NCBI GenBank assembly: GCA_949282965.1 | Contig: CASDQW010000109.1 | Coordinates: 1 to 64,000 of the forward strand | DNA: 64,000 nt | Direction of reading: 5' to 3' | Origin: an uncultured Lentisphaeria bacterium | GTDB lineage: Bacteria > Verrucomicrobiota > Lentisphaeria > Victivallales > Victivallaceae | Shown: in pieces, positions 10,772-19,592 of the stretch | How the letters are laid out: each line of letters opens with the position of its first letter | Position numbering within the stretch: the first letter of the stretch is position 1 | Notes under the pieces: generated by a model | Told to the model about the DNA's origin: nothing | What the model saw: the letters and a program-made list of their open reading frames with translations, nothing else | Databases searched by the model: none | Program-made: the position numbers and the translations under genes

Positions 10772-12043
10772 CTACTCGGCGCGCAGAACGGTAATGGGGT
10801 TCTGCTGGGCCGCCTGCCAGGCAGGGTAGGTGCCGAAGATGACTCCAACCAGGCTGGAAATCAGCATCGACGCCACAATGCTCCAGAGTGAATAGACCGT
10901 CGGCATCCCGGCGTAGTAGGTGATGATCTGGGAAATGCCGATGCCCAGAATGACGCCGAGCAGGCCGCCGAGCGAGGTGAGCGAGACGGTTTCGATGAGG
11001 AACTGCAGCAGGATGTCGATTTTCTGGGCGCCGAGCGCGCGCCGTGTACCGATTTCCTTGCGGCGTTCGAAGACGCTGGCGAGCATGATGTTCATGATGC
11101 CGATGCCGCCGACGATCAGCGAAATGCCGGCAATCGAACTCATGACGATGGTGAAGATGTTCTGCGTGGCCTCCCGCTGTTTGAGCAGGTCGAGGGGGAC
11201 AATGACTTCCCAGTCCTTGACCTTGGAGTGGGATTTCCCCAGATAATTGATCAACCGGCGGGCGGTGTTGTCGATGTATTCAAGGTTCCGGATTTTCAGC
11301 AGGAAGACGTCGTAATCGATCAGGGTGACCCGGATGCCGGTGCCGTCGTCGGTATAGGCGTAGTTGCCGTAAAGAATTTCCGAGGTGGGGAAGGGGATGA
11401 GAATCATGTCGTTGGGACTGCCCACCTCCGGATAGTTGGCGCCGATATCGTTGTGCAGCACGCCGATGACGCGGAACACCTGCCCTTCGACGCGGATGGG
11501 GGCGCCGATGACGTCTCTGGCGCCGAGCGGAAAAAGTTTCCGCTTCACGTTGCTGCCGATGACACAGATATTCTGCGGTGCGTGAAAATCCACCCCGGAA
11601 AACCAGCGTCCGTCCGTCATGCCGCTGGCCGAGTCCTCCAGAAAATCCCGGTCGACGCCGACCAGTTTCAAGTCCATCCGGTCCAGCCCCTTGAGAATTT
11701 TTTTGCGGGCGTCCCGCACCCGGGTGATCCGTTCGATGTTATCCAGTTCCAGGATCTTCCGACGGTCGATCGCGCTCAGGCCGTAGGCGTCGATCCGGCT
11801 GGTGCGGTTGGAACTGACGCCGGCGCCCGCGGACGGAGGTTTTTTGGAATAAACGATGATTTTATCGATGCCCATGGCCTCGATCTGCTCAAGCGCTTTG
11901 CGTTTCGCACCTTCCGAAATGGCCAGCATGGCGATGACGCTGCCGACGCCGAAAATCACACCGAGCGAGGTCAGCACCGAGCGCACTTTATGCAGGCGCA
12001 GGTTTTGCAGCGAAAGCTGGACGATGTCGCCGAACATCATCAT
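10772..12043 (-). CDS. MacB/LolC-type ABC transporter permease
   Basis: Permease of the MacB (type VII) ABC superfamily, whose members drive outer-envelope export or efflux by mechanotransmission. The 423-residue protein has the expected layout: one N-terminal membrane helix after SLQNLRLHKVRSVLTSLGV, a large periplasmic MacB_PCD domain (about 45-280), and three C-terminal helices of the FtsX domain with ERRKEIGTRRALGA between the first two. It overlaps the ATPase gene by 4 bases (ATGA). It is the last of four co-oriented genes: secretin, periplasmic adaptor, ATPase, permease. Confidence 0.92.
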   Translation of the reverse strand: MMMFGDIVQLSLQNLRLHKVRSVLTSLGVIFGVGSVIAMLAISEGAKRKALEQIEAMGIDKIIVYSKKPPSAGAGVSSNRTSRIDAYGLSAIDRRKILELDNIERITRVRDARKKILKGLDRMDLKLVGVDRDFLEDSASGMTDGRWFSGVDFHAPQNICVIGSNVKRKLFPLGARDVIGAPIRVEGQVFRVIGVLHNDIGANYPEVGSPNDMILIPFPTSEILYGNYAYTDDGTGIRVTLIDYDVFLLKIRNLEYIDNTARRLINYLGKSHSKVKDWEVIVPLDLLKQREATQNIFTIVMSSIAGISLIVGGIGIMNIMLASVFERRKEIGTRRALGAQKIDILLQFLIETVSLTSLGGLLGVILGIGISQIITYYAGMPTVYSLWSIVASMLISSLVGVIFGTYPAWQAAQQNPITVLRAE

Positions 12044-12789
12044 GATGCAAACGCCCCCTGGGGAAATTCCTGCACCACCAGTCCGTCCCGCAGCCGGATC
12101 ACCTGATCATAATGCGGTTCGAACAACGGGTTGTGCGTCACCATGACAATGGTGACGTTCTGTTCCCGGTGCAGGCGGTGAAAGAGATTCATGATTTCGT
12201 TGCCGGTTTTTTCGTCCAGGTTTCCGGTCGGTTCATCGGCCAGCAGAAAAGTCGGATGGTTGCCGAGCGATCGGGCCACCGCCACCCGCTGGCATTCGCC
12301 GCCGGAGAGCTGGGTCGGCCGGTGCCCGAGCCGGTGCCCGAGTCCAACCTGCTTGGCCAGTTCAAGCGCACGGGCCCGCCGGACGCGTCGCGAAACGCGG
12401 TTGTAGATCATGGGAACTTCGATGTTCTGTTCGATCGTCAGGTACGGGAACAAGTTGAAACTTTGGAAGATGAACCCGATTTTGCGGTTGCGGATCGTCG
12501 CCTGCTCCTGGTCGGTCAGGGTTTCCACGTTGATGTCTTCGAGCAGATAGCTGCCGGACGTGGGCACGTCGAGCATGCCCAGAATGTTCAGCATGGTCGA
12601 TTTGCCGGAACCTGAGGTACCGACAATGCCGACGAACTGGCCGCGCCGGATTTCGAAGGAAATGCCCTTGAGCACGTTGACGGCCAGTTCTCCGGTATTG
12701 TAGGTTTTTCGGATGTCGTTCAGCCGGAGAACGACCTCGCCGCCGGCGTATGGTGTGATTTCAAACGGGGTACTGCTGCTCATGGCCAT
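12040..12789 (-). CDS. ABC transporter ATP-binding protein (MacB/LolD type)
   Basis: The ATPase that powers the adjoining permease. The 249-residue protein shows Walker A GTSGSGKST (about residues 56-64), the Q-loop around FIFQSFNLFPYLT, the signature LSGGECQR, Walker B LLADEPTGNLD and the H-loop MVTHN. The GNLDEKTG stretch after Walker B is typical of LolD/MacB ATPases. It lies 5 bases after the adaptor gene and overlaps the permease by 4 bases, so the three products should be made together. Confidence 0.95.
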   Translation of the reverse strand: MAMSSSTPFEITPYAGGEVVLRLNDIRKTYNTGELAVNVLKGISFEIRRGQFVGIVGTSGSGKSTMLNILGMLDVPTSGSYLLEDINVETLTDQEQATIRNRKIGFIFQSFNLFPYLTIEQNIEVPMIYNRVSRRVRRARALELAKQVGLGHRLGHRPTQLSGGECQRVAVARSLGNHPTFLLADEPTGNLDEKTGNEIMNLFHRLHREQNVTIVMVTHNPLFEPHYDQVIRLRDGLVVQEFPQGAFAS

Positions 12790-12794
12790 CCGGG

Positions 12795-14318
12795 TCAGGA
12801 TTCACTGTCCTGTTTTTTCTGGTAGGGCCGGTAGAGATAGACGATGTCATTCTCCTTGAGCCCGTCGAGAATTTGAACGTAATTGCTGTTGGCCTCCCCG
12901 ATGGTGACCGGAACCTCCTTGGGGGCGCCGCCGCGATGACAGTAGACGAAGAACGACGAATTGTTTTCAAACACGGCCTCCACCGGTACAAACAGCACGT
13001 CGCGCAGAATTTTGGAAATGACCTCGACCTCCACGCTCATGCCGTTCACCAGCTGGGGATTTTGTTCGTCCAGGGTAATGCGGGAATTGTAGACCTTGGG
13101 GGAGGCGCTGTCCCAGCTGATCTGGTTGACCGGAAGCGTGGCGATCTGGCTGATCGTACCGCTCAATTTGAGCGTCGGCAGGGAGTCGGGGGTGATGACC
13201 ACCCGGTTGCCGGTATGGATCCGGGAGCGGTACTGTTCCGGCAGGTCGAAATCCACCATCAGGTTGTCCATTTCCGGGATGGTCAGAATGATCTGGCCCT
13301 TCCAGATGTCCATGCCCGGCTTGACGTCCGGGTTGCCCCAGCGCCGGTCGGGGTCGGCGTAGATGACGATGCCGTCGGCAGGGGCGACCAGTTTCATCAT
13401 CGGCAGATAGGATTCGTATTTTTCCAGCTGGTTGACGATCCGGCGGATGTTGGTACGCAAATTATCCACCAGTTTCTTTTTCTGCACGAGGTTGGAGGCG
13501 GTGGAAATACGCACCCGTTCCCGATTCAGTTTGGCCTGTTCCAGTTCGTTGTAGAGCCGCAGCAAAGTGATCGGATTGTCGTAACGCTGAAAGGCCTTGC
13601 GGTCGGTCTGGGCGCTGGAGAGGGCGTTTTCCGCGGTGTCGATTTTATTCTGCAAATCGCGGAGCTCCTTCTGGTTCTGTTGTTCTCCGGCCTCGTCACT
13701 GACGCCTTCTTCTTTGATGGCTTTCAGCTTGTCTTCGTAGTCCTGCTTGGCGTTGAGCAGGTTGGTTTCGGCGGTCGCAATCTGCAGCGCGAGATTTTTT
13801 CTGGTATTGGAGCGTTCGAGACGCAGGTATTTGCGAAGCGCGGCCTCGGCCTGGTTCAAACGGTCTTCGGCAACTTTTAGGTCCACCTCGTTGCTGCTTT
13901 CCTGCACTTTGGCGTTTTCGATGGCGATGGCGAGTTCCTTTTCCTGATTGGAATAGGAGATACGCAGGTCGTCGATTTTTTCCTTGAGTTCGTCGGTTTC
14001 GAAAACCGCCAGCACATCGCCTTTTTTGACCTTGGCGTTCTCGTCGACCACCGAAAGCAGCTTGGTGCGGTAGTTGGCCTGCAGCGACAGTTTATGTTTT
14101 TCACTGGCACTGACGTTGCCGCTGAGACGCAACCCGATGATCAGGTTGTCGCGCTTGACCTTGAACGTCCGGTCGATGGCGGTATCGCCGCGGCGGATGG
14201 CGAACTGTTCATCCGCGCGGCGTTCCGCGAGGTAGACCACGCCCCAGCAGTAGCCCGCGGCGGCCAGCAGGACCGGGACGGCGGTCAGAATGGTGATTTT
14301 CATCCAGCGAATGCGCAC
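12795..14318 (-). CDS. HlyD/MacA-type periplasmic adaptor
   Basis: Membrane-fusion (periplasmic adaptor) protein of a tripartite export system. The 507 residues show an N-terminal anchor helix (about 8-28), a first half-lipoyl segment (LRLSGNVSASEKHKLSLQAN and VKKGDVLAVFETDEL), a very long coiled coil (about 110-320) split by an acidic insert (KEEGVSDEAGEQQ), the second lipoyl half (LVAPADGIVIYADPDRRWG), and C-terminal beta-barrel and membrane-proximal domains. The coiled-coil hairpin is longer than in MacA, which may suit a different outer-membrane partner. The start is GTG with GAGGGG upstream. It lies 15 bases after the secretin gene and 5 bases before the ATPase. Confidence 0.9.
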   Translation of the reverse strand: MRIRWMKITILTAVPVLLAAAGYCWGVVYLAERRADEQFAIRRGDTAIDRTFKVKRDNLIIGLRLSGNVSASEKHKLSLQANYRTKLLSVVDENAKVKKGDVLAVFETDELKEKIDDLRISYSNQEKELAIAIENAKVQESSNEVDLKVAEDRLNQAEAALRKYLRLERSNTRKNLALQIATAETNLLNAKQDYEDKLKAIKEEGVSDEAGEQQNQKELRDLQNKIDTAENALSSAQTDRKAFQRYDNPITLLRLYNELEQAKLNRERVRISTASNLVQKKKLVDNLRTNIRRIVNQLEKYESYLPMMKLVAPADGIVIYADPDRRWGNPDVKPGMDIWKGQIILTIPEMDNLMVDFDLPEQYRSRIHTGNRVVITPDSLPTLKLSGTISQIATLPVNQISWDSASPKVYNSRITLDEQNPQLVNGMSVEVEVISKILRDVLFVPVEAVFENNSSFFVYCHRGGAPKEVPVTIGEANSNYVQILDGLKENDIVYLYRPYQKKQDSES

Positions 14319-14333
14319 TTTGCCACCCCCTCG

Positions 14334-15758
14334 TCACGGTTTGGGGAGGCCGGTGGGAATTTCACCGGTCGTGGATTCGCTTTTCTGCAGCGGATCGCGG
14401 TCGATGAATTCATGCTTGACCTGCTGCAACGTATTTTCAGTCTGCGGCAAAGTCGGCGACTTGCGGATGATGTCCCCGATGGCGTTGCTGCTCCGGGCGG
14501 TTTCGTCCGGGTCGAAAAGAATCCCGTCGGCCAGGTCGTCCGGCGTCAGAATGCGTACCCGGAGGAAGAACAGCAGCTGAATCAGCTCCTTTTCCCGGTA
14601 TTTGGAGGTGAACAACTCTCCGAAATAGGGAATGTCGCTCAAAAACGGGATGCGTTCCTGGCGGACGGATTCCCGGTTGTTGTACAACCCGCCCATGACG
14701 ATGGTCTGGCCGTCTTCGAGCTTGATGTTGGTTTCGATGCTGCGCACGGAAATCACCGGCACCTGATAGGAACTGGTCCCCTGTGAGATGGTTTGATAGC
14801 TCTGAATGTTGGAGACCTGCGGCGACACCAGCAAGGTGACGTTGTCCTCGTTGATCATTTTCGGGGTTACGTCCAGCGTGACGCCGACCCGTTTAAAGGT
14901 GGTGCTGGTCTGGATGCTGCCGTTGGTGTTGGTCTGGGACTGAATCGGGACGTCCTGACCGTTGGAGATGGTGGATTTTTCATTGCGGGCCACAACAATG
15001 GTCGGCGAGGACAGAACCTTGGCATCCTGGGCATTGAGCAGCCACTGGAAGGCGGCATGAATGCTCTTGTCGCCGGATGAGAAGACCCAGTCCATGCCGC
15101 CGCCGTCTTTCGTCGTGGTCGGCGCCAGCGAAGAAGTGGTCATGCCGGCGCTGTTGTTGACGGCGCCGGGACTCGCGTGGCCGTTCTCATCGATCACGGT
15201 GACGTCCTTGGTTTGATTGAAGGTCAGCGACATGTTGCGCTGCATGCCGTCGGAAATCATGATTTCCACGACTTTGGCTTCGATCAACACCTGCGAGGAG
15301 GCGACATCGATGGCGGGAAGAATTTCTGCCAGCGCTTCGATGTTTTCCTTTTTGTCGTTGATGATGAGCATGTTCTGTTCTTCAGTCGGTTCCACGTACC
15401 CGTCATTGGTAATCAGGGATTCCACGCTGGTGGACAGTTTGCTGGCGGTATTGTAGCGGCAGCGGTAGACCAGGGTGGCGCGCCCGCTGATGCCGGGCAG
15501 GATTTTCAGATAACGTTGTTCCGGTGCGGGGCGGCCTTTGCGGACTTTCTGCTGCGGCGCGAACAATTCCCGAAGCTGGTCTGCGACCCGGATCACGTTT
15601 TCCCGGCCGGCCTGAATATCCTCCGGGGTACGGACCACGATTTCTCCGGGATTGAGGATGGAAGGCGGATTGCCGCTTTGCTCCGACGCGGATGCCGAAG
15701 AACAACAAAGCACCAGGACACTGATTGGGAACAGACGGAGAAAGAATGGTCGAAACAT
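14334..15758 (-). CDS. Secretin-family outer membrane channel
   Basis: Outer-membrane pore of the GspD/PilQ superfamily. The 474-residue protein has a Sec signal peptide (to about ASAS at residue 25), an N-terminal region, one secretin N1/N3-like domain (about 105-150, TEEQNMLIINDKKENIEALAEIL), and the secretin barrel domain (about 155-395). Barrel landmarks include VLIEAKVVEIMISDG, GVTLDVTPKMINEDNVTLLV, and the strongly conserved DGQTIVMGGLYNN, IPFLSDIPYFGELF and ELIQLLFFLRVRIL. A 75-residue tail follows. It is short for a type II secretin, having one N domain instead of three or four. No other type II secretion or pilus genes are nearby. Instead it is the first gene of an operon with an adaptor and a MacB-type ABC pair. 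Confidence 0.9.
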   Translation of the reverse strand: MFRPFFLRLFPISVLVLCCSSASASEQSGNPPSILNPGEIVVRTPEDIQAGRENVIRVADQLRELFAPQQKVRKGRPAPEQRYLKILPGISGRATLVYRCRYNTASKLSTSVESLITNDGYVEPTEEQNMLIINDKKENIEALAEILPAIDVASSQVLIEAKVVEIMISDGMQRNMSLTFNQTKDVTVIDENGHASPGAVNNSAGMTTSSLAPTTTKDGGGMDWVFSSGDKSIHAAFQWLLNAQDAKVLSSPTIVVARNEKSTISNGQDVPIQSQTNTNGSIQTSTTFKRVGVTLDVTPKMINEDNVTLLVSPQVSNIQSYQTISQGTSSYQVPVISVRSIETNIKLEDGQTIVMGGLYNNRESVRQERIPFLSDIPYFGELFTSKYREKELIQLLFFLRVRILTPDDLADGILFDPDETARSSNAIGDIIRKSPTLPQTENTLQQVKHEFIDRDPLQKSESTTGEIPTGLPKP

Positions 15759-15822: not shown

Positions 15823-15851
15823 ATTATACATCTGTTTTCCCAAAAAATCAA
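15823..15851 (-). promoter_or_regulatory. Promoter of the secretin-ABC operon
   Basis: On the minus strand, TTGATT (15846-15851), a 17-base spacer and a perfect TATAAT (15823-15828), about 65 bases before the secretin start. Confidence 0.75.
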
Positions 15852-15978
15852 CCCGGAAAATCACCTTTTGAAAAAAACTTTAAAAATTAAAAAAAAACCT
15901 TTTTCTTTGCGGAAAAATTCAGTCCGGACCACTATATTAATAGGACAACAACCCACAACTGACGAAGGCCGGCTGCAC

Positions 15979-16911
15979 ATGAAGAAAAAAAATATTTTGA
16001 TCATCGGACTCGGCCTGCTGGGCGCCTCTCTCGGGATGGCGCTTCGCGGTTCGGGCATGCGTCGGCTGGGATGGTCCCACCGGAGAGAGACCCGGTGTGC
16101 CGCGCTTGCCGCGGATGCGGTCGATGAAATCGCCGAACAGCCGGAATCGTTGCTGGCGCGGGCAGACTTGACGGTGCTGGCGCTGCCCATTCCGGCGATC
16201 ATGACGTTTCTGGAAGAGTATGCCTGCTGCTGGCGGCCCGGAGTGGTGGTTACCGATGTGGGCAGTGTGAAAACGGATATCCTGGAGGCCGCCCGGCGGT
16301 CACTGGCCGGGCGTGGCGTGCATTTCATCGGCAGCCATCCCATGGCCGGAACGGAAAAAAGGGGGGTGGCCTGTGCATTCCCCGAACTTTATGAGAACGC
16401 GGAGGTGTTCGTGGTGCCTCCGCCTGACGCCGCACCGGAGGCGGTGGCGGAGGTGGAGGCGCTCTGGACTGCCATCGGCACCCGGGTGGTGCGCATCGGA
16501 GCAACCGAGCACGACGATCTGGTGGCGCATACCAGCCATGTTTTGCACATTCTGGCTTCGGCGCTGGCGTTGAGTGTGCTGGATGCGGCTTCACCGGAGG
16601 CGCGCCGGAGGCGTTTTGCGGGTTGTGCAACGGGGTTTCGGGACACGTCGCGGATTGCTTCAAGCAACCCGGTGATGTGGCGGGAAATCATTGAGCATAA
16701 TCAACCGGCGGTCCTGGCGGCGATGCGGGACTTCGATCGGCGTTACGAACGGTTTCGGACGTTGATTGAGCAGGGCAACTTCGATGCTTTCGAACAGGAG
16801 TTTGCCGAAGGAAAACGATTGCGGGATGAATGGGTGGCCTACAAGTGTGCCACCGCTTCGGAGAAGAGAGAAAAGCCGGCTGCGGCCGGCACGGACAATA
16901 GAGGGAGTTGA
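15979..16911 (+). CDS. tyrA: Prephenate dehydrogenase family protein
   Basis: NAD(P)-dependent dehydrogenase of tyrosine biosynthesis, converting prephenate to 4-hydroxyphenylpyruvate (or arogenate to tyrosine). The 310-residue protein starts with a Rossmann motif (ILIIGLGLLGASLGMAL), then shows the family's TDVGSVK and FIGSHPMAGTEKRGVACA, which holds the conserved catalytic His, and a C-terminal helical dimer domain with THSSHVLH-like HTSHVLHILASAL. No ACT or chorismate mutase domain is fused. The ATG was chosen because GAAGG precedes it; the upstream frame codes an implausible Lys-rich extension over AT-rich promoter DNA. A -10-like TATATT lies at 15933-15938. Which substrate it prefers cannot be told. 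Confidence 0.88.
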   Translation: MKKKNILIIGLGLLGASLGMALRGSGMRRLGWSHRRETRCAALAADAVDEIAEQPESLLARADLTVLALPIPAIMTFLEEYACCWRPGVVVTDVGSVKTDILEAARRSLAGRGVHFIGSHPMAGTEKRGVACAFPELYENAEVFVVPPPDAAPEAVAEVEALWTAIGTRVVRIGATEHDDLVAHTSHVLHILASALALSVLDAASPEARRRRFAGCATGFRDTSRIASSNPVMWREIIEHNQPAVLAAMRDFDRRYERFRTLIEQGNFDAFEQEFAEGKRLRDEWVAYKCATASEKREKPAAAGTDNRGS

Positions 16912-18086: not shown

Positions 18087-18209
18087 CGAAGACGGACCGG
18101 GAAGGCCTGTCGTCACGGTTTTTATGCCGCAAGTTGCTGATGAATCAAAAATTACAGGAGCTGTCAATAACTTGCGGCTCAGAGTGGATGGCAAAGGCGT
18201 TTGGTTCTT

Positions 18210-19592
18210 ATGGAAGCACAAATGATTTCGGCGGTGGAAGTCTGGGCTGTAGCTGCCGAAAGATTGAAAAAGAAAAGTCTGCAGTGTTACCGGCAGTGGT
18301 TTCAACCGGTCGTTCCGATCCGGATCGACGATGGCAACCGATTAGTGCTGGGCGTACCGGATAAATTTTTCGGAGAATGGATTTCCGACAATCTGGACGA
18401 TCTGTTGCAGGAGGTTCTGGCCGGGATTCACGATCAGAATTACACCTATGCGGTGGAAGCCGGTCATCAGGCCCCGCCGCCGTCACCGGAGCCTGCGGTG
18501 TCGCCTGCTGTTCCGGAACCGTCGCGGCCATGCCAGAAGATTCCGCCATCCGCAGTGCGGGTGTCGCTGATCCGGCATACCTTTGAAAATTTTGTGGTCA
18601 GCGAGGAAAACCGGTATGCTTATATGGCGGTCAAGTCCGCGGTGGAAAGTCCCGGAATGCTGTACAATCCGCTGTATGTATACGGCAGCAGCGGCGTCGG
18701 CAAGACGCATTTGCTGCAGGCGGCGCAGCATGCGGCCCTCACTGGTGCCAATGGAGTGCGGGTCCGGTATGCACCTTGCAGCGAATTGTTGGACAATTTC
18801 TACGAACTGTTGCAGAACAAGCGCAGTTTGAGTGAGTTCCGTTCATCGGTCCGGGATGTGGATATTCTGCTGGTGGACGACGTGCATGTGCTGGCGAACA
18901 AGACGCAGATGCAGGAAGAATTTTTTAATTTGTTCAACACGTTGTACGGACAGCAGAAGCAGATCATTCTGACGTCGGACAAGCAGCCCTGCGAGATCAA
19001 GGGGCTGGAACCGCGCCTGGTGACGCGCTTTGAATCCGGAGTGACTACGGAGATCGGAGTTCCGGAGGTGGAGGGGCGGCTGACGATTCTGCGCATGATG
19101 CGGGAAGATACGCTGATCAAGGTCAAGCTGGGAGATCCGATTCTGGAATTCCTGGCCGTGCAGATTTCCTCCAGTGTGCGACGCCTGAAAGGGGCGTTCA
19201 TGCGCCTGGCGTCGTTTGCCTCCATGCGCGGTTCCGGGCAGCTGACGGTGCAGCAGGCTGAAGAGTTGTTGTCTGTTCAGCTGGCGCAGGAATGTTCGGC
19301 CCGGTCGGTGTCGATGGATGAGATTCAGCGGAGTGTGGCGGATCAGTTCGGTATCAAAGTTGCGGATCTGCTTGGCACCAAGCGGCCGCAGCACATCGCG
19401 GAGCCGCGACTGGTGGCCATGTATCTCTGCCGTCGGTTGACATCGCATTCGCTGCCGGAAATCGGGGCGGCGTTTGGCAAAACGCACGGTGCCATTCTCA
19501 ATGCGGTGAACAAGGTGCCGAAATTGTGCGAGCGTGACGAGGCATTGCGCCGGACTGTGATGCAGCTGGAGCAACAGCTGAAACGCGGTTGA
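18210..19592 (+). CDS. dnaA: Chromosomal replication initiator DnaA (divergent)
   Basis: AAA+ ATPase that binds origin boxes and opens the DNA for replication. The 460-residue protein has a domain I of the right shape (WAVAAERLKKKSLQCYRQWF), a Pro-rich linker (about 89-110), Walker A GSSGVGKTH (159-167), Walker B DILLVDD (218-224), an arginine-finger region (LEPRLVTRFESG) and domain IV. Domain IV keeps LTSHSLPEIGAAFG, but the usual GGRDHTT turn that reads the DnaA box is replaced by a one-residue-shorter G-K-T-H-G-A (423-428). ATG at 18222 (GGAAG upstream) or TTG at 18201 are alternative starts. It is a single-gene unit: dnaN, recF and gyrB do not follow, and a strong terminator comes straight after. 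Confidence 0.93.
   Translation: MEAQMISAVEVWAVAAERLKKKSLQCYRQWFQPVVPIRIDDGNRLVLGVPDKFFGEWISDNLDDLLQEVLAGIHDQNYTYAVEAGHQAPPPSPEPAVSPAVPEPSRPCQKIPPSAVRVSLIRHTFENFVVSEENRYAYMAVKSAVESPGMLYNPLYVYGSSGVGKTHLLQAAQHAALTGANGVRVRYAPCSELLDNFYELLQNKRSLSEFRSSVRDVDILLVDDVHVLANKTQMQEEFFNLFNTLYGQQKQIILTSDKQPCEIKGLEPRLVTRFESGVTTEIGVPEVEGRLTILRMMREDTLIKVKLGDPILEFLAVQISSSVRRLKGAFMRLASFASMRGSGQLTVQQAEELLSVQLAQECSARSVSMDEIQRSVADQFGIKVADLLGTKRPQHIAEPRLVAMYLCRRLTSHSLPEIGAAFGKTHGAILNAVNKVPKLCERDEALRRTVMQLEQQLKRG

Follow-up and report, generated by a model that had tools for sequence, protein, structure and literature searches.

The window analyzed here, a 64,000-nucleotide stretch of the genome of an uncultured Lentisphaeria bacterium, carries on its minus strand an operon (positions 15758–10772) of four open frames that encode, in order, a secretin, a periplasmic adaptor, an ATPase, and a permease. 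Generally, MacAB exporters use a TolC-type tunnel, and secretins serve type II or type III secretion, pili, or phage exit. The operon probably specifies a MacAB-like exporter that spans the envelope, with a dedicated secretin as its outer-membrane channel, replacing a TolC-family protein; from the sequence comparisons below, this reading is given a probability of roughly 0.78. The secretin appears to take the place of TolC because it occupies the same operon slot, shares 55 genomes with the adaptor, mostly persists with its partners when the operon is split, and is accompanied by a change at the adaptor tip.

Organization of the Operon and Its Products

The four genes are spaced by 15, 5, and −4 bases. 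This arrangement, proposed in the initial annotation, is borne out by the open frames together with the Pfam domains of their products. The genome is a 2.8 Mb draft, 87% complete, with seven matches to the Pfam Secretin family (PF00263).

The secretin gene (14334..15758; like all operon features given here, on the minus strand) encodes 474 amino acids (aa) comprising a leader that by eye resembles a signal peptide, a short helix, one N domain, and the secretin core. PF00263 matches at E 3e-43, above its curated cut-off, with the core at 14547..15035, and Secretin_N scores 27.1 bits, slightly below the cut-off of 28.2. The PF00263 match and the secretin fold of the model place the protein in the secretin superfamily, and PF00263 is likewise found in all 35 secretins of one alignment of operon secretins (E 0.001). 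No NCBIfam model claims the protein at its cut-off; the closest kinds are GspD and PilQ. The GspD model scores 184.6 bits against a cut-off of 351 and covers only profile positions 286–594 of 600, i.e., the N0–N2 region is missing, and the PilQ (168 versus 284 bits) and SctC (106 versus 238 bits) models also fall short. The structure model (pLDDT 71.5, weaker than that of the adaptor; best solved match, Escherichia coli GspD) runs from the leader through the short helix (residues 45–66; 15561..15626; predicted with modest pLDDT) and a single N domain (residues 84–150; 15309..15509; model and Pfam) to the core. The initial claim of one N domain therefore stands on two grounds: the GspD profile match that starts at 286 and the single N domain of the model. 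Residues conserved in the helix are V58, L62, and L65 (46, 41, and 36 of 67 alignment rows), and those in the N domain are R99, C100, and R101 (47, 51, and 49 rows). Based on the model, helix 45–66 is a candidate segment for adaptor docking. The possibility that the secretin is a lipoprotein was rejected, as only 9 of 67 sequences show even a loosely matching lipobox within their first 70 residues.

The MacA/HlyD-type adaptor gene (12795..14318; 507 aa, GTG start) gives Pfam matches to HlyD_D23 and HlyD_3. Its structure model (pLDDT 87) has two 96-residue helices, 109–204 and 209–304, which form a two-helix hairpin (residues 109–304; 13407..13994) with arms of about 144 Å by arithmetic at 1.5 Å per residue, not from coordinates. 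The best structural match is MacA in MacAB-TolC (Z 19.1, rmsd 7.5, 330 residues aligned), a comparison that carries no information on the outer-membrane partner.

The MacB/LolD-type ATPase gene (12040..12789; 249 aa; ABC_tran, E 4e-32) has the catalytic motifs, namely Walker A, Q-loop, LSGGE signature, Walker B, and H-loop, and is about equally close to MacB (236.6 bits) and LolD (231.5 bits). The permease gene (10772..12043; 423 aa) encodes a MacB-type protein with a periplasmic core domain (MacB_PCD, E 7e-29; FtsX, E 1e-22) that scores 168 bits with MacB versus 36 bits with LolCE. The operon thus combines a MacB-type permease with periplasmic core, a MacB/LolD-type ATPase, and a MacA-like hairpin adaptor, the parts of a MacAB pump. 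The near-equal ATPase scores would also suit a LolCDE- or YbbAP-like envelope machine, engaged in lipid or lipoprotein handling or stress, that inserts, gates, or quality-controls the secretin, and PMC12646458 describes non-export functions among type VII ABC systems. Such a role is unlikely, however, given the MacB-type permease, the MacA-like adaptor, and the slot exchange with a TolC-family gene described below, which points to an exit duct.

Conservation and Co-Occurrence of the Four Genes

A search with the window secretin covered 288 genomes of the phylum, and for the 54 best genomes other than that of the window, gene neighborhoods were annotated by comparison with the four window proteins. 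An adaptor alignment was searched against the same 288 genomes; in both searches at most five candidates per genome were scored, and the list of secretin matches has its cap at a level lower than the scores relied on here. The adaptor matched 115 genomes at E 1e-40 or better, at 125 places that fall into an upper tier of 55 and a lower tier of 70. Upper-tier adaptors and the 55 best secretin hits lie in the identical 55 of the 288 genomes, with an empty set difference, the cut-offs having been picked after the score gap was seen. The adaptors of two genomes, G172 and G235, scored in the lower tier, probably owing to hairpin inserts, and were assigned by neighborhood and tree.

All four genes stand in the order secretin–adaptor–ATPase–permease in 50 of the 55 carrier genomes, that of the window included, which is far above chance. 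The set is thus shared with related genomes; its restriction to the window genome would have spoken against the initial annotation. Among the other five carriers, two (G197 and G272) are cut by contig ends, two (G101 and G209) show the secretin and adaptor only, and in G129 the secretin lies on a different contig from the adaptor trio.

Occurrence outside the phylum was covered by a pattern scan and a plasmid search only. The scan, which used adaptor patterns only and one genome per species across 84,980 species, returned 45 pattern matches, of which 24 loci are relatives, and all 24 have a secretin beside the adaptor, in L116 as a 144-residue fragment. Their record titles name Lentisphaerae/Lentisphaerota, Kiritimatiellae or relatives, Pontiellaceae, Victivallis, Verrucomicrobia/Verrucomicrobiota, and in one case a plain "bacterium". 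As the patterns were derived from Kiritimatiellae-type adaptors, distant relatives would escape them. The plasmid search gave nine records, all weak matches, seven annotated gspD and two without an annotated feature.

When the two sources were pooled and 11 duplicates removed, 68 distinct loci besides the window were obtained: 55 with all four genes, 8 with the secretin–adaptor pair only, 4 cut by contig ends (L046, L048, L118, and L122), and 1 split. The permease was then searched genome-wide in seven Kiritimatiellae-type genomes that have the pair and no ATPase–permease seen beside it, with G129 as an eighth. Five of the seven (G101, G209, G289, G290, and G292) have an ATPase–permease pair elsewhere whose permease belongs to the secretin clade, and no adaptor or TolC-family gene was found beside these five distant pairs. 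Sets kept in one genome after the operon has broken are good evidence of a shared task. A functional unit of secretin and adaptor alone, e.g., a trans-envelope tether or passive conduit to which the ATPase and permease are optional, is very improbable: the 8 pair-only loci of 68 have room for more genes and two of the seven genomes lack a full-length secretin-clade permease, but the other five keep the ATPase–permease pair elsewhere, 55 of the 68 loci have all four genes in order, and the two misses may reflect assembly gaps.

At L196:7145-10627, where a secretin-clade ATPase–permease pair stands without an adaptor, the genes ahead of the pair are of the DUF4340 and ABC_transp_aux (PF09822) families.

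Exchange with a TolC-Family Gene in the Same Slot

All 70 lower-tier loci, hereafter sister loci, were fetched, and the slot was defined as the position directly upstream of the adaptor on the same strand. A TolC-family gene fills it in 62 of the 70 (36 of the first 38 loci and 26 of the remaining 32) and this secretin in none; two slots fall at a contig end and six hold neither. One locus, L145, was scored by hand as TolC-family, since an over-long start overlaps by 248 bases. Pfam OEP was confirmed in all 15 sister slot genes tried (L135, L164, L172, L145, and L147 among them); other slot genes were called with an OEP profile built from ten Pfam-confirmed genes, and the other labeling profiles were trained on secretin-linked loci. 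Among the distinct secretin-linked loci, the secretin stands in the slot before the adaptor in 67 of 68. Hence, the slot in front of the same trio holds a secretin in one of the two clades and a TolC-family gene in the other. Both kinds of system are present in five genomes (G050, G159, G101, G209, and G235).

The suggestion of the initial annotation that a secretin stands in TolC's place is thus supported by the slot exchange (62/70 versus 67/68), by the co-occurrence in 55 of 288 genomes, and by the tip change described next.

Change at the Tip of the Adaptor Hairpin

A motif at the hairpin tip of MacA, AcrA, and MexA, RxxxLxxxxxxS, makes the TolC contact, according to PMC3391258. No match to this motif, or to the form with a final T (PMC3391258), was found anywhere in the window adaptor. 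In aligned columns, on which the tip claim rests, the MacA-type leucine is present in 70/70 sister adaptors and 0/66 secretin-linked ones. Conversely, an 8-residue tip insertion is present in 66/66 secretin-linked adaptors and 0/70 sisters. In the window, this insertion occupies the tip turn (residues 207–214; 13677..13700), and D208 is kept in 47 of the 66. For this alignment, the near-copy L081 stands for the window adaptor, the partial adaptors L048 and L116 were omitted, and the remaining 32 sister adaptors were added to the fixed alignment of the first ones. The full R-x3-L-x6-S motif, in its R or K form, is found in 2 of 36 sisters and in none of the 66 secretin-linked adaptors, and the TolC-linked sisters keep the leucine column in 36/36 and S or T in 28/36. 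Most TolC-linked sisters likewise have no arginine at its position; therefore, only the L and S/T part is informative.

The window genome also has an ordinary MacA-like adaptor on contig C26 (L080:7355-10686), encoded with an ATPase and a permease; its hairpin has 102 residues and bears the complete RLS motif at the tip.

Other Channels and Secretion Genes in the Genome

No match to the TolC family or to E or F proteins of a type II secretion system (T2SS) was found on the 156 kb contig that holds the window (C109; E 0.001). T2SS-type E and F genes all lie on other contigs, and two of these, C102 and C111, each have a set of secretin, E, and F. Their GspD-like secretins cover profile positions 3–598 and 1–599 with 345 and 327 bits, slightly below the cut-off of 351. 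The initial annotation, which held that no TolC partner or complete type II system accounts for the parts nearby, is upheld in this respect.

Compared with the established classes, the operon differs at defined points. With no E or F gene on the contig, a GspD score below cut-off, and no N0–N3, it does not qualify as a T2SS, pseudopilins having been left out of the search. The subthreshold PilQ and SctC scores likewise set it apart from type IV pilus and type III secretins. Type I exporters (HlyBD-TolC) contain an HlyB-type fused ABC exporter, whereas the permease here is of the MacB/FtsX type, the ATPase is separate, and no TolC-family match is found on the contig. Relative to MacAB-TolC, the window adaptor is without the tip motif for TolC, and no TolC-family gene is encoded with the trio. 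A TolC gene is often unlinked from the pump genes in other bacteria, and the window genome has one intact TolC-family gene over cut-off, on contig C67.

These genes bear on a further alternative, in which a distantly encoded type II or pilus machine would use the secretin as an additional pore, the secretin gene being merely co-transcribed with an exporter that relies on a TolC from elsewhere. The protein is a genuine secretin with GspD and PilQ as its nearest kinds, and the genome has both T2SS-type E and F genes and the TolC-family gene on C67. Yet C102 and C111 have their own near-full-length GspD-like secretins beside E and F, and the window secretin is without the N0–N2 region, which is the docking site of the inner-membrane parts of the T2SS. 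Moreover, one set of 55 genomes out of the 288 holds both secretin and adaptor, including genomes in which the operon is split, and none of the 66 secretin-linked adaptors has the MacA-type tip leucine. This alternative is therefore regarded as quite unlikely, and an exporter with its own secretin is preferred.

Several other channel-like genes of the genome were seen. A TolC-family gene on C5 (L079:8120-9463) is interrupted by a stop codon in the draft genome. A weak TolC-family match on C100 lies below cut-off, and a "TolC" match on C26 was rejected and not counted, being the ordinary MacA-like adaptor, which weakly matches the OEP model. C21 (L076:2123-7214) has two tandem long secretins of 830 and 858 aa, whose best NCBIfam match is the Amuc_1098 family type IV pilus protein (322 and 310 versus a cut-off of 750 bits). 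C106 (L077:7112-10174) has two tandem short, weak secretin-like proteins of 535 and 483 aa, of which only the former was scanned with NCBIfam; the pair lies near an ABC ATPase gene and a second gene that by eye resemble PstB and PhoU, respectively.

Probable Direction of the Exchange

Of the 70 sister loci, the first 38 entered the trees; the more careful of the permease trees was thinned to 24 secretin-linked and 28 TolC-linked rows. In this tree (54 rows), the secretin-linked permeases form a clade with support 100/99, and their nearest sister is the TolC-linked permease of L135 (98/96). When it is rooted with E. coli MacB and the genome's ordinary MacB-type permease, the secretin clade is nested in the TolC-linked radiation, and 0 of 200 bootstrap trees put the TolC-linked rows on one side of a branch; given the length of the outgroup branches, the root should be taken with caution. 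A quick permease tree of 93 rows gives the same grouping (support 99), and an adaptor tree with the hairpin columns excluded implies one channel change. From the nesting in the permease tree and the single change in the adaptor tree, one TolC-to-secretin replacement is the simplest reading, its direction being suggested by the rooting.

Proposed Mechanism and Comparison with Known Systems

MacB-type transporters act by mechanotransmission on cargo from the periplasm, as stated in PMC8277102, PMC7943197, and PMC5985334. By analogy, the ATPase dimer and the MacB-type permease would reside in the inner membrane, where ATP would move the periplasmic domain of the permease, as in MacB. An adaptor ring on the permease would take up periplasmic cargo and pass it along a tube of long hairpins, whose remodeled tips would meet the leading helix and single N domain of the secretin instead of the TolC tip; the secretin gate would then open and the cargo exit. 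The altered tips and the secretin's short periplasmic end are the most likely points of contact. A secretin pore would admit larger or folded cargo than TolC. The system would have arisen once, by replacement of the TolC-family gene in the operon.

A wider proposal, which we consider an even bet, is that these operons represent a new class of secretion machine. Here, a MacB-type motor would push cargo from the periplasm, possibly large polymers or folded proteins unable to pass TolC, through a secretin, and a six-fold adaptor would dock onto a higher-order ring via its new tip; the class would have arisen once, replacing TolC, within the Lentisphaerota-Kiritimatiellae-Verrucomicrobia phylum.

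Several observations weigh against an exporter with a secretin in place of TolC. Secretin rings usually have 12–16 subunits and MacA is a hexamer, so that the symmetry mismatch needs bridging. Six sister loci have neither channel adjoining the adaptor despite room, no full-length secretin-clade permease was found in G288, and none was found in G291, whose locus ends 240 bases past the adaptor. A conserved fifth gene or cargo gene adjoining the operon was not found; the best neighbor cluster is limited to 7 loci, among which its position varies. In the adaptor tree, the secretin clade has an SH-aLRT of only 83, and in a quick secretin tree (midpoint root, long branches) the operon secretins do not fall on one side of a branch, implying two changes; this tree is too long-branched to place the origin of the secretin. 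When L-x6-[ST] was sought without an alignment in the middle 40 hairpin residues, the two kinds separated poorly (12/66 secretin-linked versus 25/36 sisters), which may reflect the abundance of leucine and serine in coiled coils and the off-center tip of adaptors with inserts. Finally, hairpin length was rejected as evidence for a secretin. In the initial annotation, the extra-long coiled coil was read as spanning the distance to the secretin, but the median length is 198 residues in secretin-linked adaptors (196–314, n = 66) versus 190 in TolC-linked sisters (190–293, n = 36), E. coli MacA and AcrA having 88 and 74. As the hairpin is long in both kinds, the length argument falls, and the conclusion that a secretin replaces TolC rests on the other grounds given above.

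The six sister adaptors with neither channel directly upstream are those of L157, L206, L214, L215, L216, and L219; at L157, L215, L216, and L219, no ATPase and permease were seen beside the adaptor either.

Among known systems, MacA-MacB-TolC of E. coli (PDB 5NIK) resembles the operon in its MacA-like adaptor, its MacB-type permease, and an ATPase that matches MacB (237 bits). It differs in that the channel here is a secretin, ATPase and permease are separate genes, the hairpin has about 198 rather than 88 residues, and the window adaptor is without the RLS/RLT motif. The TolC-linked sister operons (TolC-family gene–adaptor–ATPase–permease, e.g., L135 and L143) share the trio, its order, and the long hairpin and are the nearest relatives in the permease tree; they have a TolC-family gene for the secretin, keep the MacA-column leucine, and are without the 8-residue insertion. 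Type II secretion is alike in that the window protein is a GspD/PilQ-type secretin, scoring 184.6 bits with GspD, whereas the operon has no E or F on its contig, is missing N0–N2, and would be driven by an ABC ATPase if the proposed model is right. In DevBCA-type cyanobacterial exporters, ATPase and permease are separate genes, and the system works with a TolC homologue. They are described as MacB-like with an adaptor in PMC8277102. The Aat/Cex system of E. coli (AatPABCD) also has separate MacB-like ATPase and permease genes and a periplasmic adaptor (PMC7943197 and PMC8277102), but its channel, AatA, is a TolC homologue, and its acyltransferase, AatD, is without a counterpart in the window operon.

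A search of the open-access literature (5.39 million papers), with most subscription papers outside its reach, gave no report of a secretin with a MacB-type exporter. Each part belongs to a known family, and the combination is not known from the literature searched. To date, tripartite pumps have been defined by a TolC-family duct. If the present reading is true, two unrelated outer-membrane channels have been exchanged in one slot, meaning that the joint between adaptor and duct can be rebuilt, and an export route for cargo too large for TolC is suggested. Since the tip changed where the partner changed, the system would allow a stringent test of how adaptors recognize and open their channels, and the apparent single switch, with both versions surviving, makes the sister operons directly comparable.

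Neighboring Genes and Putative Promoter

A sigma-70-like promoter match (15823..15851, minus strand; TTGATT, 17 nt, TATAAT; 10/12) lies 64 bases upstream of the secretin start; with 2 matches of this type found versus 1.8 expected by chance, it is a weak candidate. In six Kiritimatiellae-type loci (L065, L067, L113, L114, L117, and L118), a conserved gene precedes the secretin–adaptor pair, and in the one scanned (L065:8847-9680) a PTS EIIA-2 domain was identified together with a weak match to a C4 zinc ribbon. In the window, a prephenate dehydrogenase gene (15868–16911) is divergent from the operon, and the same divergent neighbor is present in four loci (L081, L091, L102, and L104). A dnaA-like gene (PF00308, PF08299, and PF11638) follows at 18201–19592, about 2.4 kb beyond the secretin start.

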